A stretch of DNA of 64,000 nucleotides from Glacieibacterium frigidum (GCF_007097155.1 NZ_VJWA01000001.1:1583501-1647500), one strand, 5' to 3'; shown: positions 59,936-64,000, counted from the stretch's first letter. Notes: generated from the letters alone by a model not told the origin. A program made the numbers and translations.

Positions 59936-60814
59936 CTATTTGACGGGCACCCAGGCGTAACCGTCGCCCTCGACGCGGATCGTGCCGACGCCGGGAAAGG
60001 GGAAATGCTGGGCGTACAGCGTCAGCTTTTCGTCGACTGCCCGCTTGAGCAGCGCGCGCCGCGTCGGCTCGGCGGTCGCGGGGTCGCCGTCGAAGGCGAT
60101 CGTATACTCGGGCTGACGGACCGAAACGATGTACTGGTGCGCGCTGTCGCCGATGACCATCAGCTTGGCGCGGCCCGACGTGACCAGATAGCCGGTGTGG
60201 CCCGGCGTGTGGCCGCGCAGCTCGACCGACTGGACGCCGGGCACCACCGTTGCGCCGGGGGTGAAGGTCGCGACCTGCCCCGCCACCGCGGTGACGGGCG
60301 ACGCGGGCTTGAGCGACGCGCGCTCGCCCGCGGTCATGTGGATGCGCGCCTTGGTGAACACTGACTTGCCGTCGGCGTCGACCAGCCCGCCGACATGGTC
60401 GCCGTGTCCGTGGGTGATGAAGATGTCGGTCACCGACGCGGGCGCGATGCCGGCGAGCGCCAGGCTCTCGAGCATCCGCCCCTTGCGCGCCGCGCCGTTG
60501 CCGGTGTCGAACATCATCGTGCGCCCGCCGCCGCGCAGCACGAGGACGTTGATGTCGAGGCGGATCGGATCGGCGGGCACGCCCGCTGCAGTCAGCACCG
60601 CGCCGACTTTGGCGGGCCCCTCGTCGATGCCGAGCACCTTGCCGTCGTTGGGCAGCTGGTTGGTCGCGTCGAACAGCGCGAAGCCTTCGAGCGATCCGAC
60701 CTTGAACTTGTGGACCGCCGGCTTGGCGGGGCTGGCGGCGACGGCCGGCGCGGGCGAGGCGGCGGCGGGTGCGGCGGCGATCAGCAGAGCGGTGGTGGCG
60801 AGCAGGCGGAGCAT
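59936..60814 (-). CDS. Exported MBL-fold metallo-hydrolase
   Basis: A 292-residue metallo-beta-lactamase-fold hydrolase. MLRLLATTALLIAAAPAAASP is a signal peptide. The metal motif is ITHGHGDHVGGLVD (HxHxDH), with further His in RGHTPGHTGYL, GDSAHQ, and AQHFPFPGVG. The layout resembles quorum-quenching AHL lactonases and related periplasmic esterases, but the substrate is unknown. ATG 60814 is preferred for the signal; an ATG at 60847 is in frame. Confidence 0.88.
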   Translation of the reverse strand: MLRLLATTALLIAAAPAAASPAPAVAASPAKPAVHKFKVGSLEGFALFDATNQLPNDGKVLGIDEGPAKVGAVLTAAGVPADPIRLDINVLVLRGGGRTMMFDTGNGAARKGRMLESLALAGIAPASVTDIFITHGHGDHVGGLVDADGKSVFTKARIHMTAGERASLKPASPVTAVAGQVATFTPGATVVPGVQSVELRGHTPGHTGYLVTSGRAKLMVIGDSAHQYIVSVRQPEYTIAFDGDPATAEPTRRALLKRAVDEKLTLYAQHFPFPGVGTIRVEGDGYAWVPVK

Positions 60815-60863
60815 CGGCAGTTTTCCCCAAGTGTCGTTGTGGGGCACGATAGCCGAAGCGAAA

Positions 60864-61220
60864 CTACATGTCGCGCAGTGCCGCGCTGACCTCCTCGATC
60901 GCGGGCTCGGGGGCCGCCATCGCCTCCACCTCCTGCTGCACCCCGCGCATGACGCGCGCGATGTAGTCGCGGATCAGCTCGCCGCGCTCCTGCGCCGCCG
61001 CAGTGTCGGGAGTGTAGGCCTCGATCGCCGCGCGGGTAACCGGGGCGCCCGAATCGAGCAGCCGCTCGACCGTATCGAGGCGCTGGCGCATCACCGACAC
61101 TTCGCCGATCAGCGCGGTGAGCATCGACAGCATGCGATCGGCGGCGGGATCGTCGAAGAACGCCGGGCGCTTTCCCTTCGCCTTCGCCCCTGCCCTAGCG
61201 ATCCAGTCGAGTTCGCTCAC
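60864..61220 (-). CDS. Small helical protein at the end of the nitrilase/methyltransferase operon
   Basis: A 118-residue helical protein. RPAFFDDPAADRMLSMLTALIGEVSVMRQRLDTVERLL is followed by a long helix with Glu/Arg pairs, giving a coiled-coil look. It has no membrane segment and no recognised family. It starts with a GTG in a GTGA overlap with the methyltransferase stop, so it is translated with it and may be a partner subunit. It ends 49 bases before the start of the MBL hydrolase gene. Confidence 0.75.
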   Translation of the reverse strand: MSELDWIARAGAKAKGKRPAFFDDPAADRMLSMLTALIGEVSVMRQRLDTVERLLDSGAPVTRAAIEAYTPDTAAAQERGELIRDYIARVMRGVQQEVEAMAAPEPAIEEVSAALRDM

Positions 61221-62395
61221 GGCTTCCACGCGCCATAGGCGTTCCACACCGCGGCGCGGCCGTGATCCTCCTCGCCCTGGCTCTGATCGGGGAAGATCGA
61301 GGTATCGACCACCGCACGCACGCCGGTGACGAACACGTCGGGTAGCCCGGCGTCGCGCATGAGTTGCTTGAGGTCGAGGCCGTGCATCGCCGACCAGAAG
61401 GGCTCGTTGTTGTTGAACGCGTCCCAGTCGCGGATGAACTGCTCGTACAGCGGCATCGCGTCCGAATATTGCGGCTGCTCGAGGTGGAGCATCAGCCCGC
61501 CCGACGCCAGCACGCGCACCCCCTCGGCGATGACGCGCGGCAGCGCGGTACCCGACAGCTCGTGGAGGTACATCGTCGTCTGTACCCAGTCGAAATGCCC
61601 GTCGGGAAAAGCCATGCTTTCGGCATTCATCTGGACGAACTGCAGATTGGTCGCCCCCAGCGCCTGCGCGCGGGCATGGCCGTAGCGCAGCACGGGTGCG
61701 GCGGTGTCGATCGCCACGACCTCCGCATCGGGAAAGACCAGTGCCAGCGGCACGACATTGTGCCCGACGGTCGCGCCGAGATCGAGGATGCGCCGCGGCT
61801 GCCAGCCCGGCCGCTCGCGCCGCACCCAGTCGACGAGCGCCTGCCCGCCGCCGTCGCTCAGCGCACCCAGCCCGCCCGCCGTCGTCGCGAAGAGCCCGCA
61901 GTCGTAATTCGCCCCCGCCGACACGTCGCCGGGGCGTTCCTCGCCGTGATAGCTGCCCGGCATGCAGTGGATGTCGACCGCCCGCTGGTAACGCGGAACC
62001 TCGACGCCGGGGTCGAGGCGCAGCGTGTCCTTGCCGTCGTTGAGCGCCGCGGCGCGCGCATCGAGGTTGTCCAACTGGCGCAGCACCATCGCGCGGCCGT
62101 TGTGCTGGCGCATCTCCATCGAGTTGCGCTTGAGGCCCGACCAGAGGCGGTGAAACGGATCGGCGTTCATCGCGCGGCGGATCTCGAACCGGTCGACGGG
62201 GTCGCGGCCGTGCGCGCGCGCGAACGCCGGGCGGACGCGCGTCTCGTACGCCCGCGCATTGCCCGGCCCCAGCGTGCCCGACAGGTACTTGTTGAAATTG
62301 GCGAGGAAATCGAAGCGCGCGGCGTCGTCGTGCTTCGGCTCCGGAAACACGGCGTGGCGCGCGACGGCGGCGTACGGCGGGGCGATGTCGCTCAT
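61217..62395 (-). CDS. SAM-dependent methyltransferase with N-terminal extension
   Basis: A 392-residue protein. Residues ~195-330 are a class I methyltransferase fold: RRILDLGATVGHNVVPLAL (motif I, with ATVGHN in place of the usual GCGTG), EVVAIDTAAPVLRYGHARAQ (motif II acidic residue), NAESMAFPDGHFDWVQTTMYLHEL. The N-terminal ~190 residues (FEIRRAMNADPFHRLWSGLKRN..., SYHGEERPGDVSAGANYD) are family-specific and unrecognised. It overlaps the nitrilase-like gene (ATGA) and the following small gene (GTGA). The substrate is unknown. Confidence 0.82.
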   Translation of the reverse strand: MSDIAPPYAAVARHAVFPEPKHDDAARFDFLANFNKYLSGTLGPGNARAYETRVRPAFARAHGRDPVDRFEIRRAMNADPFHRLWSGLKRNSMEMRQHNGRAMVLRQLDNLDARAAALNDGKDTLRLDPGVEVPRYQRAVDIHCMPGSYHGEERPGDVSAGANYDCGLFATTAGGLGALSDGGGQALVDWVRRERPGWQPRRILDLGATVGHNVVPLALVFPDAEVVAIDTAAPVLRYGHARAQALGATNLQFVQMNAESMAFPDGHFDWVQTTMYLHELSGTALPRVIAEGVRVLASGGLMLHLEQPQYSDAMPLYEQFIRDWDAFNNNEPFWSAMHGLDLKQLMRDAGLPDVFVTGVRAVVDTSIFPDQSQGEEDHGRAAVWNAYGAWKP

Positions 62396-63414
62396 ATCAA
62401 TCCCTCACGGTCGAGACGGGCGATCACTTCGTCGTGCGCCCGGCGAAAGTCATCGCGCGTCGGCACCGTGTTCGCCAGGCGGTCTGCGGGCTGCACTTGC
62501 GGATTGTGCGCGAACAGCTCGGTGCGCTGGCGGGCGAGGTAATTGGTCATGCCCGGCTTGCGGCGCGCGGCGCGCAGCGCATGCAGGTCGATGTCGGCGA
62601 ACGCCGTGAAAGTCTCGCCGCTGTTCGATTCGCTCAACACCGCGCCGCGCCAGTCGACGACGCACGAATTGCCATCGGCCGACGCCAGCGGCAGCGCGGT
62701 GCCGCTGATCCCCGCGGTGTTCGCCGACACGACGTAGGCGAGATTCTCGAACGCCCGCGCGCGTTTCGCCAGCGCCTTGTGCGTCGGGTTTGGGGAGCCG
62801 ATTTCGGACGACGAATGGACGAACACCTCGGCCCCGCGCAGGGCATGGGCGCGCGCGATCTCCGGGTAGACGATTTCCTCGCTCGCGATGGCGCTGAGGT
62901 TGCCGATCTCGGTACGCGCCACCGGGAAGACGCCGTCGATGCCGTAGTGGTCGAGGTACGCCGTCCACACGTCGTGCGGCGTCGGCGCGAACATCGAATT
63001 GAGGCGACGGTAGCGCAGCACGCAGTCGCCCGACGGCGCGAACACCAGGCTCGCCTGGAAATACAGGCCGGGAAAATGCACGTCGCGCTCATAGGCGTTG
63101 ACCGCGAGGTGCAGCCCGCGGTCCTGCGCGACCTTGCCGAGTGCCGCGTATTCGGGGCCGTCGACGTCGAACGCGACCTTCTCGGCGAAGTCGCCGACAC
63201 CGATGCGGCCGGGATAGCTGGTGAACAGATATTCGGGCAGCACCGCGAGGCGCACCGGCGCCCCGCCATATTGTTCGATGAAGATGCACGCGGCGTGCAG
63301 CTGGGTCGCGACGTCGGCGATGTGCGCGCGCACTTGCGTCGAGACTGCGGCCCGGTCGGCGCAACCCTCGACCGAGCGCGCGGTGAGCTGCATCGCGACG
63401 GCGGCGTAGGTCAC
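62392..63414 (-). CDS. Nitrilase-superfamily protein lacking the catalytic Lys and Cys
   Basis: A 340-residue carbon-nitrogen-hydrolase-fold protein. The N-terminal Glu is kept (RLAVLPEYLF, Glu61). At the Lys position the sequence is VLRYRRLN (Arg136/Arg137), and at the nucleophile motif, where active members read IC-x-x, it is AIASEEIVYPEIAR with Ser178 or Ala177. There is no Lys between residues 95 and 212, and the only cysteines (18, 43, 131, 251) lie elsewhere. The downstream RGAEVFVHSSSE, RARAFENLAYVVSANT and dimer region are typical. It is either a pseudo-enzyme or uses altered chemistry. ATG 63414 overlaps the FAD-oxidase stop (ATGA). Confidence 0.85.
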   Translation of the reverse strand: MTYAAVAMQLTARSVEGCADRAAVSTQVRAHIADVATQLHAACIFIEQYGGAPVRLAVLPEYLFTSYPGRIGVGDFAEKVAFDVDGPEYAALGKVAQDRGLHLAVNAYERDVHFPGLYFQASLVFAPSGDCVLRYRRLNSMFAPTPHDVWTAYLDHYGIDGVFPVARTEIGNLSAIASEEIVYPEIARAHALRGAEVFVHSSSEIGSPNPTHKALAKRARAFENLAYVVSANTAGISGTALPLASADGNSCVVDWRGAVLSESNSGETFTAFADIDLHALRAARRKPGMTNYLARQRTELFAHNPQVQPADRLANTVPTRDDFRRAHDEVIARLDREGLI

Positions 63415-64000
63415 AAGCCGAGAGCGCTCGGGTTCATCGCGCCTGCGGGATCGACCGCCGCCTTGATCTGCCCGAGCAGCGCCCAGGCGGCCGGGTCGCT
63501 GCCCGCCCGCAGCGGATAGGTCCGCCCGATCTGGAAGTGCGCCGCCCCGTGCGTGGCGAAGATGTCGATGACGGCAGCGCGCAATTCATCGACCAGCGCG
63601 CGCGCCGCGTCGTTCGCGGCAAAACCCTTCAGGCGCGCGAGGTGCGCGGGTTCGACCGCGCGGCGGTGCAGTTCGGCGGTCGCGCCGGGGTAGTAGAACA
63701 CCGGCTCGATCAGGAAGGCGCCGTGGCCGACGGTCAGCAGCATATGCCCTGCCCCGATGCCGAGCGCCTCCATCTCGGCGGCGCGCGCCTCGAACAGCGC
63801 CTCGATCGCCGCAAATGCCGGCGCCGCCTGACCGTGCGTCACAATGCCGTGGACGGGCACCCAGCGCTCGCCCTCCGGCCCGAGCATCGAGTTGGGCGGC
63901 GGGAAGGGGTTGGCGCGCAGCACCTTGGGGATGGTGTTCGCCACCGGCTTGCCGCCGTGCGCGAGTGCGATCGTCGTCAGCGCGGCGAGGTCCGCGTCGG
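63411..64000 (-). CDS. FAD-linked oxidase, VAO/D-lactate-dehydrogenase-like (partial, N-terminus off the right edge)
   Basis: The C-terminal 196 residues are visible; the frame stays open past the window edge. The segment matches the C-terminal cap domain of FAD-linked oxidases of the vanillyl-alcohol-oxidase type: VPVHGIVTHGQAAPAFAAIEALFEARAAEMEALG, LIEPVFYYPG, AAHFQIGRTYPLRAG and the terminal IKAAVDPAGAMNPSALGL. The FAD-binding domain lies outside. It is the first visible gene of the coupled operon with the nitrilase-like protein and the methyltransferase. Confidence 0.85.
   Translation of the reverse strand, partial: DADLAALTTIALAHGGKPVANTIPKVLRANPFPPPNSMLGPEGERWVPVHGIVTHGQAAPAFAAIEALFEARAAEMEALGIGAGHMLLTVGHGAFLIEPVFYYPGATAELHRRAVEPAHLARLKGFAANDAARALVDELRAAVIDIFATHGAAHFQIGRTYPLRAGSDPAAWALLGQIKAAVDPAGAMNPSALGL

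Follow-up and report, generated by a model that had tools for sequence, protein, structure and literature searches.

Nitrilase-superfamily amidases and formamidases (AmiE, AmiF), VAO/PCMH flavoproteins (GlcD, D-lactate dehydrogenase, VAO) and class I SAM methyltransferases (UbiE, RebM, Rv2258c) are the described systems closest to the proteins of an operon in Glacieibacterium frigidum. Its nitrilase-fold protein (hereafter NIT) has the fold, the domain, the LPEY Glu and the active-site surroundings of AmiE and AmiF, but differs by Lys to Arg and Cys to Ser exchanges in every full-length ortholog among the matches listed. The flavoprotein (FAD oxidase) shares the FAD_binding_4 domain and a weak FAD-oxidase_C tail with the VAO/PCMH group, but scores far under every NCBIfam equivalog cut-off. 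The methyltransferase (MT) has the common Methyltransf_25/11 domain and fold, but adds a helical N-terminal domain, a DxHCMPG motif and a near-constant small partner gene. At the pathway level, relatives' loci recall itaconate degradation (RipABC; Ict-Ich-Ccl) in that a MaoC-type hydratase and a CitE-type lyase adjoin CoA-transferases, but there these genes are joined to imide/amide hydrolases unneeded by itaconate pathways. They also have PuuE-like deacetylase-fold proteins and an isochorismatase domain in common with allantoinase PuuE and isochorismatase-family amidases, but no purine-degradation genes were recognised near the PuuE-like genes in the annotated loci, and purine degradation via PuuE, whose cut-off was also missed, was rejected. 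The sequence-only reading knew of no described pathway with this composition, and none is characterised in the Pfam, NCBIfam, PDB sequence and open-licence paper sources searched.

The window, that is, the whole 64,000-nucleotide stretch analysed (C1:1583501-1647500; the genome comprises 3.43 Mb on three contigs), ends on its right side within a leftward-read operon (Table 1), and the reading frames of the small protein, MT and NIT are all open. Read directly on the minus strand, the junctions are GTGA at 63411-63414, ATGA at 62392-62395 and GTGA at 61217-61220; the sequence-only reading, which listed ATGA, ATGA and GTGA, was right about the second and third, and about coordinates and sizes, but mistaken about the first. 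Its suggestion that the operon might reach past the right edge is borne out by the adjoining stretch (L009), where the FAD oxidase gene continues for 961 bases (whole gene 516 aa, G000:C1:1646911-1648461, equal to L009:6912-8462) and is joined, with overlaps or nearly so, by genes for an MFS carrier, a DUF3108-like protein and a TonB-dependent receptor. The seven-gene order is thus TonB receptor, DUF3108-like protein, MFS carrier, FAD oxidase, NIT, MT and small protein, and directly upstream lie a MaoC/RipB-like gene, an acyl-CoA dehydrogenase gene and two CoA-transferase genes. At the other end, a metallo-beta-lactamase-fold gene follows the small gene by 16 bases on the same strand; it was not seen beside the small gene in the relatives' loci compared, and is therefore probably a local neighbour outside the conserved set. 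Elsewhere in the adjoining stretch (L009:13017-13685) is a membrane protein with a weak DUF2269 match in its family, which recurs beside MT and the small gene in Erythrobacter loci and is possibly an electron-transfer partner of the flavoproteins.

Table 1. Genes at the right end of the window (positions counted from its first nucleotide).
Feature	Position	Strand	Remarks
FAD_binding_4 (PCMH/VAO-type) oxidoreductase, C-terminal part in window	63411..64000	-	domain match
NIT, nitrilase-fold protein (CN_hydrolase), 340 aa	62392..63414	-	GTGA overlap with FAD gene; domain match
MT, class I SAM methyltransferase, 392 aa	61217..62395	-	ATGA overlap with NIT gene; domain match
Small helical-hairpin protein, 118 aa, partner gene of MT	60864..61220	-	GTG start; GTGA overlap with MT
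Metallo-beta-lactamase-fold protein, signal-like N terminus	59936..60847	-	weakly AidB-like, 134 bits vs. cut-off 360

Overall, this operon is real and conserved across many sphingomonads, and it is undescribed in the sources searched. Across 149 genomes of the order, MT and the small protein occur in an identical set of 17, NIT orthologs occur in 27 and FAD oxidase relatives in 30 (both in 25), and MT and NIT are found together in 13 (hypergeometric p about 1e-22 for MT/small, 3e-21 for NIT/FAD and about 1e-8 across modules, values that ignore phylogenetic relatedness). Both families are rare phylum-wide (NIT in 5 and MT in 4 of 299 genomes, E<=1e-30), and of the two genomes of the genus the only MT carrier is the window's own. 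A scan of species genomes yielded at least 80 named MT loci, and the locus counts below cover these plus two of the window's genome. Among the matches listed, the carriers are mainly Sphingomonas, Blastomonas, Sphingobium, Sphingopyxis, Parasphingorhabdus, Erythrobacter, Novosphingobium and Sandarakinorhabdus. The gammaproteobacterial carriers are Steroidobacter agaridevorans and Peristeroidobacter agariperforans, whose MT is 76-77% identical, which suggests lateral transfer between proteobacterial classes, probably recent; in Steroidobacter and Peristeroidobacter, two loci (L097 and L163) hold the operon together with the linked block described below.

The contiguous FAD-NIT-MT-small arrangement was found at 25 loci among the matches listed, including the window's own, in Sphingomonadales and two Steroidobacter-type gammaproteobacteria, and most of these have a TonB receptor and an MFS gene upstream. 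A contiguous MFS-NIT-MT-small run occurs at 7 loci (again among the matches listed), and other orders exist, namely MT-small-VOC-FAD-NIT (L072/L170) and MT-small-FAD (L010), with NIT and FAD usually neighbours in relatives' loci. The genes are kept together, and in the same order, in many genera, and match no characterised pathway in the sources searched; given the 25 recurring loci and the family co-occurrence, the four-gene arrangement is not due to chance. The set consists of two tight co-occurring modules, MT with the small protein and FAD oxidase with NIT, which merge in one lineage. Of the earlier proposal that tight coupling implies one pathway or complex, the common pathway is supported; as to a complex, only MT and the small protein are plausible partners.

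NIT carries a clear CN_hydrolase domain (PF00795, 100.3 bits vs. a cut-off of 23.2), and in alignment with formamidase the catalytic Lys becomes R137 and the catalytic Cys S178, while the Glu is kept as E61. Among the marks of a functional nitrilase it therefore has the domain and the Glu and lacks the Lys and Cys; the sequence-only reading was correct about the two missing residues, but in calling the protein active-site-less it went too far. E61, R137, P146-H147-D148, S178, E179 and E180 are invariant in 13 of 13 diverse orthologs, and the Glu-Arg-Ser combination is found in each of the 33 full-length copies from named loci (among the matches listed), with active-site segments that read YRRL and IASEE in L118. 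Two phylum-wide relatives (L173, L174) also have Arg and Ser, one of them with Tyr at 147, and weaker relatives from other genomes (L069, L070; roughly 30-34% identical) keep Glu-Lys-Cys plus the PHD motif. With Glu-Arg-Ser in all full-length relatives of the named loci and Glu-Lys-Cys retained by a related group, the site has been fixed in an altered state rather than decayed; most simply, an amidase-type ancestor would have lost Lys and Cys, after which the altered site became fixed. Such fixation suggests function, without implying a catalytic role. Among PDB sequences the solved relatives of NIT are only distant ones (Nit2, formamidase), and a search of open-licence papers for inactive nitrilases returned nothing relevant. 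A second nitrilase-like family lies close to MT and the small gene at three loci (L079:7811-8950, L135:12339-13478, L147:12338-13462); it keeps Glu and Lys, has Ser at the Cys position (SSSQ/SSTQ) and in 2 of 3 members an RR-type signal-like N terminus, and represents a second Cys loss in the same gene neighbourhood.

MT matches Methyltransf_25/11 domains (PF13649, 58 bits), and D205, G207, G211 and D230, that is, the SAM motif and the acidic residue that closes strand 2, are invariant in 32 sequences, which places it in class I. Its predicted structure (pLDDT 88, pTM 0.88) has helices spanning residues 22-119 and a class I fold from near 130, with the conserved DxHCMPG motif ahead of the Rossmann fold; structure matches are class I methyltransferases, mostly beginning near residue 130, among them Rv2258c (Z about 17 over 207 residues). 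The unrecognised N-terminal domain of 190 residues reported earlier accordingly comprises two parts, a helical domain at about 1-125, which is unassigned rather than new, and a stretch at about 130-195 that precedes the class I fold as in other methyltransferases. Solved relatives among PDB sequences are distant only (YcgJ), and identity with the corrinoid-associated CpaM was rejected, as the match (46 of 180 bits) is at superfamily level only.

The small gene lies directly downstream of 90 of 96 MT genes in a six-frame check, with a 4-base overlap in 56 of 79 called pairs (both among the matches listed), and the six MT genes without an adjacent small gene are all in loci with one elsewhere. 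Distance matrices of the two proteins correlate (r=0.96 overall and 0.87 within the main clade; none of 2000 permutations was as high), which supports but does not prove a physical complex, since shared descent explains part of it; with this caveat, the formation of an MT-small complex is plausible. The pair is also co-duplicated (L010 9814-11381; L110-L117). The small protein, described in the sequence-only reading as coiled-coil-like and 118 residues long, is predicted to be a hairpin of two long helices at 25-57 and 73-102 (pLDDT 85, pTM 0.58), for which Foldseek returned no PDB match with E<=0.001. PspB was rejected as its identity (18.6 vs. 25.6 bits in Pfam, 23.4 vs. 51.7 in NCBIfam; predicted hairpin model). 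A paralogous MT-small-FAD trio with 4-base overlaps and no NIT occurs in the same genome (L010:9814-12952, G000:C2:517813-520951), next to genes for a flavin amine oxidase, a maleate-isomerase/arylmalonate-decarboxylase-like protein, a PuuE-like protein, an FAD monooxygenase, an aldehyde dehydrogenase and a HyuA-like caprolactamase subunit.

The FAD oxidase matches PF01565 with 103.8 bits (cut-off 26.4), and in 23 of 28 copies the first-domain loop, one of the places where a subset of the family carries a His or Cys that links the flavin covalently, reads PRGGGMSYT, without His or Cys. No close solved relative was found among PDB sequences, the distant ones being glycolate oxidase and D-lactate dehydrogenase, and none of FAD oxidase, NIT, MT and small protein reaches an NCBIfam equivalog cut-off. 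A third FAD oxidase paralog (L011:9807-11432), with no NIT or MT, sits beside an ADH_N_2-type reductase and a small c6-family protein; a reductase of this type also adjoins NIT in several families.

The flanks in relatives contain three further runs of genes: an aldehyde dehydrogenase, two PuuE-like deacetylase-fold proteins and an isochorismatase; an alpha/beta hydrolase, a 160-aa protein, LeuC/LeuD-type subunits, an HMG-CoA-lyase-type protein, a CoA-transferase III and a VOC protein; and CoA-transferases, an acyl-CoA dehydrogenase, a RipB-like hydratase and a RipC-like lyase. TRAP transporter, amidohydrolase_2 and cupin genes also occur beside FAD-NIT in relatives. The first two runs are present in the window's genome at C1:1239285-1249046, 0.4 Mb from the operon, in the order ALDH-PSDA-PSDA-isochorismatase / hydrolase-IPMI L/S-HMGL-CoA-transferase, and no close RipC relative was found there (the nearest are 35-36% identical). 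The operon was seen without the imide block in its flanks at L118, L122 and L131, and Erythrobacter loci have MT-small and the block, with FAD-NIT not adjacent. Because the equivalog cut-offs for PuuE (98-145 vs. 424.6 bits), RipB (243 vs. 340 bits), RipC (230 vs. 375 bits) and the CoA-transferases were all missed, the block's proteins are assigned at the level of family membership and not of exact reactions; the nearest solved relatives of the isochorismatase-family protein include N-carbamoylsarcosine amidohydrolase as well as 3ot4/3uao.

By known enzyme chemistry, a PuuE-like ring hydrolase and an amidase, followed by a hydratase, a CoA-transferase and a lyase, would lead from a cyclic imide or lactam via a half-amide to a branched C4 diacid, its CoA ester and cleavage. 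Hence our best explanation, which we hold tentatively, is that the operon takes up and starts to break down a nitrogen-containing ring compound, with a substituted cyclic imide and then a branched C4 diacid as intermediates; both the catabolic direction and the imide intermediate, like the MT-small complex, are inferred. The TonB receptor and MFS carrier would bring in the substrate, whole or as a large fragment, and the FAD oxidase would oxidise it; NIT, with its Glu-Arg-Ser site, would act on the oxidised product by a reaction other than the usual Cys-acyl-enzyme amide hydrolysis, and MT, with the small helical protein as a subunit, would methylate the substrate or an intermediate. The PuuE-like hydrolases may then open the cyclic imide or lactam and the isochorismatase-family hydrolase take off the amide nitrogen, after which the branched C4 diacid would be hydrated (LeuCD-type) and CoA-activated (CoA-transferase III), and the CoA ester cleaved to central metabolites (HMG-CoA-lyase-type, or RipB/RipC-like in relatives). 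Counting against this explanation are the distance of the linked block and the lack of a close RipC relative in this genome, the loci without the block and the missed cut-offs; moreover, purely degradative pathways seldom include a methyltransferase.

Another reading is that the operon serves to build or tailor a small molecule, by means of an oxidase, an amide-bond enzyme, a methyltransferase and an MFS exporter: the composition is like that of tailoring gene sets, and the MT fold matches the natural-product enzymes RebM, DnrK and TylM1. However, no core biosynthetic enzyme was recognised in the annotated neighbourhoods, and degradation is indicated by the TonB receptor, the CoA-transferases, the acyl-CoA dehydrogenase and the lyases, which makes this reading improbable. 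Degradation of a substrate without ring nitrogen, such as a terpenoid or an aromatic, with the PuuE-like and isochorismatase-like proteins acting on side groups or serving as general hydrolases, is rather unlikely: branched-diacid CoA enzymes suit many substrates, and the TRAP transporter, amidohydrolase_2 and cupin genes are typical of many aromatic or acid pathways, but two PuuE-like proteins and an isochorismatase-family amidohydrolase conserved in one operon point to C-N bonds. A nicotinate-type maleamate pathway was rejected: although an isochorismatase and an FAD_binding_3 monooxygenase occur, annotation of the loci revealed neither a ring-cleavage gene nor one for an N-formylmaleamate deformylase. 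That the coupled genes have no common pathway and are held together only by recent descent or transfer is very unlikely; many loci do come from related sphingomonads, and the Steroidobacter copies indicate that transfer occurs, but the families re-associate in other orders (L072/L170, L010) and their distributions match.

Compatible with the catabolic reading, NIT could be a pseudoenzyme that itself catalyses nothing and serves the FAD oxidase as a scaffold or regulatory subunit. The replacement of the two residues that define nitrilase-family catalysis in all full-length relatives of the named loci, and the sharing of 25 genomes with a usually adjacent FAD gene, would agree with this; a dead site, however, is expected to drift, and the residues in and around this one are invariant in the 13 orthologs, so that we consider a pseudoenzyme possible but doubtful. 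Quite improbable is that a nitrilase-fold lineage exchanged Glu-Lys-Cys for Glu-Arg-Ser and gained a new reaction in an undescribed pathway that would convert a pyrrole/tetrapyrrole-type compound (bilin, chlorophyll or haem fragment) to substituted maleimides and then branched diacids, with a two-subunit methyltransferase of a new kind taking part. Tetrapyrroles would yield substituted maleimides; a search of open-licence papers on bacterial bilin or chlorophyll breakdown returned nothing relevant. Some carriers, such as Sandarakinorhabdus cyanobacteriorum, would stem from cyanobacterial settings, judged by name only, which is a lead and not substrate evidence.

If the degradation of a nitrogen-containing ring compound is confirmed, environmental sphingomonads would possess an undescribed route for such compounds, the fixed non-canonical site of NIT would offer a test of the view that Cys is indispensable in the nitrilase superfamily, and MT would be an orphan methyltransferase with a dedicated small partner.
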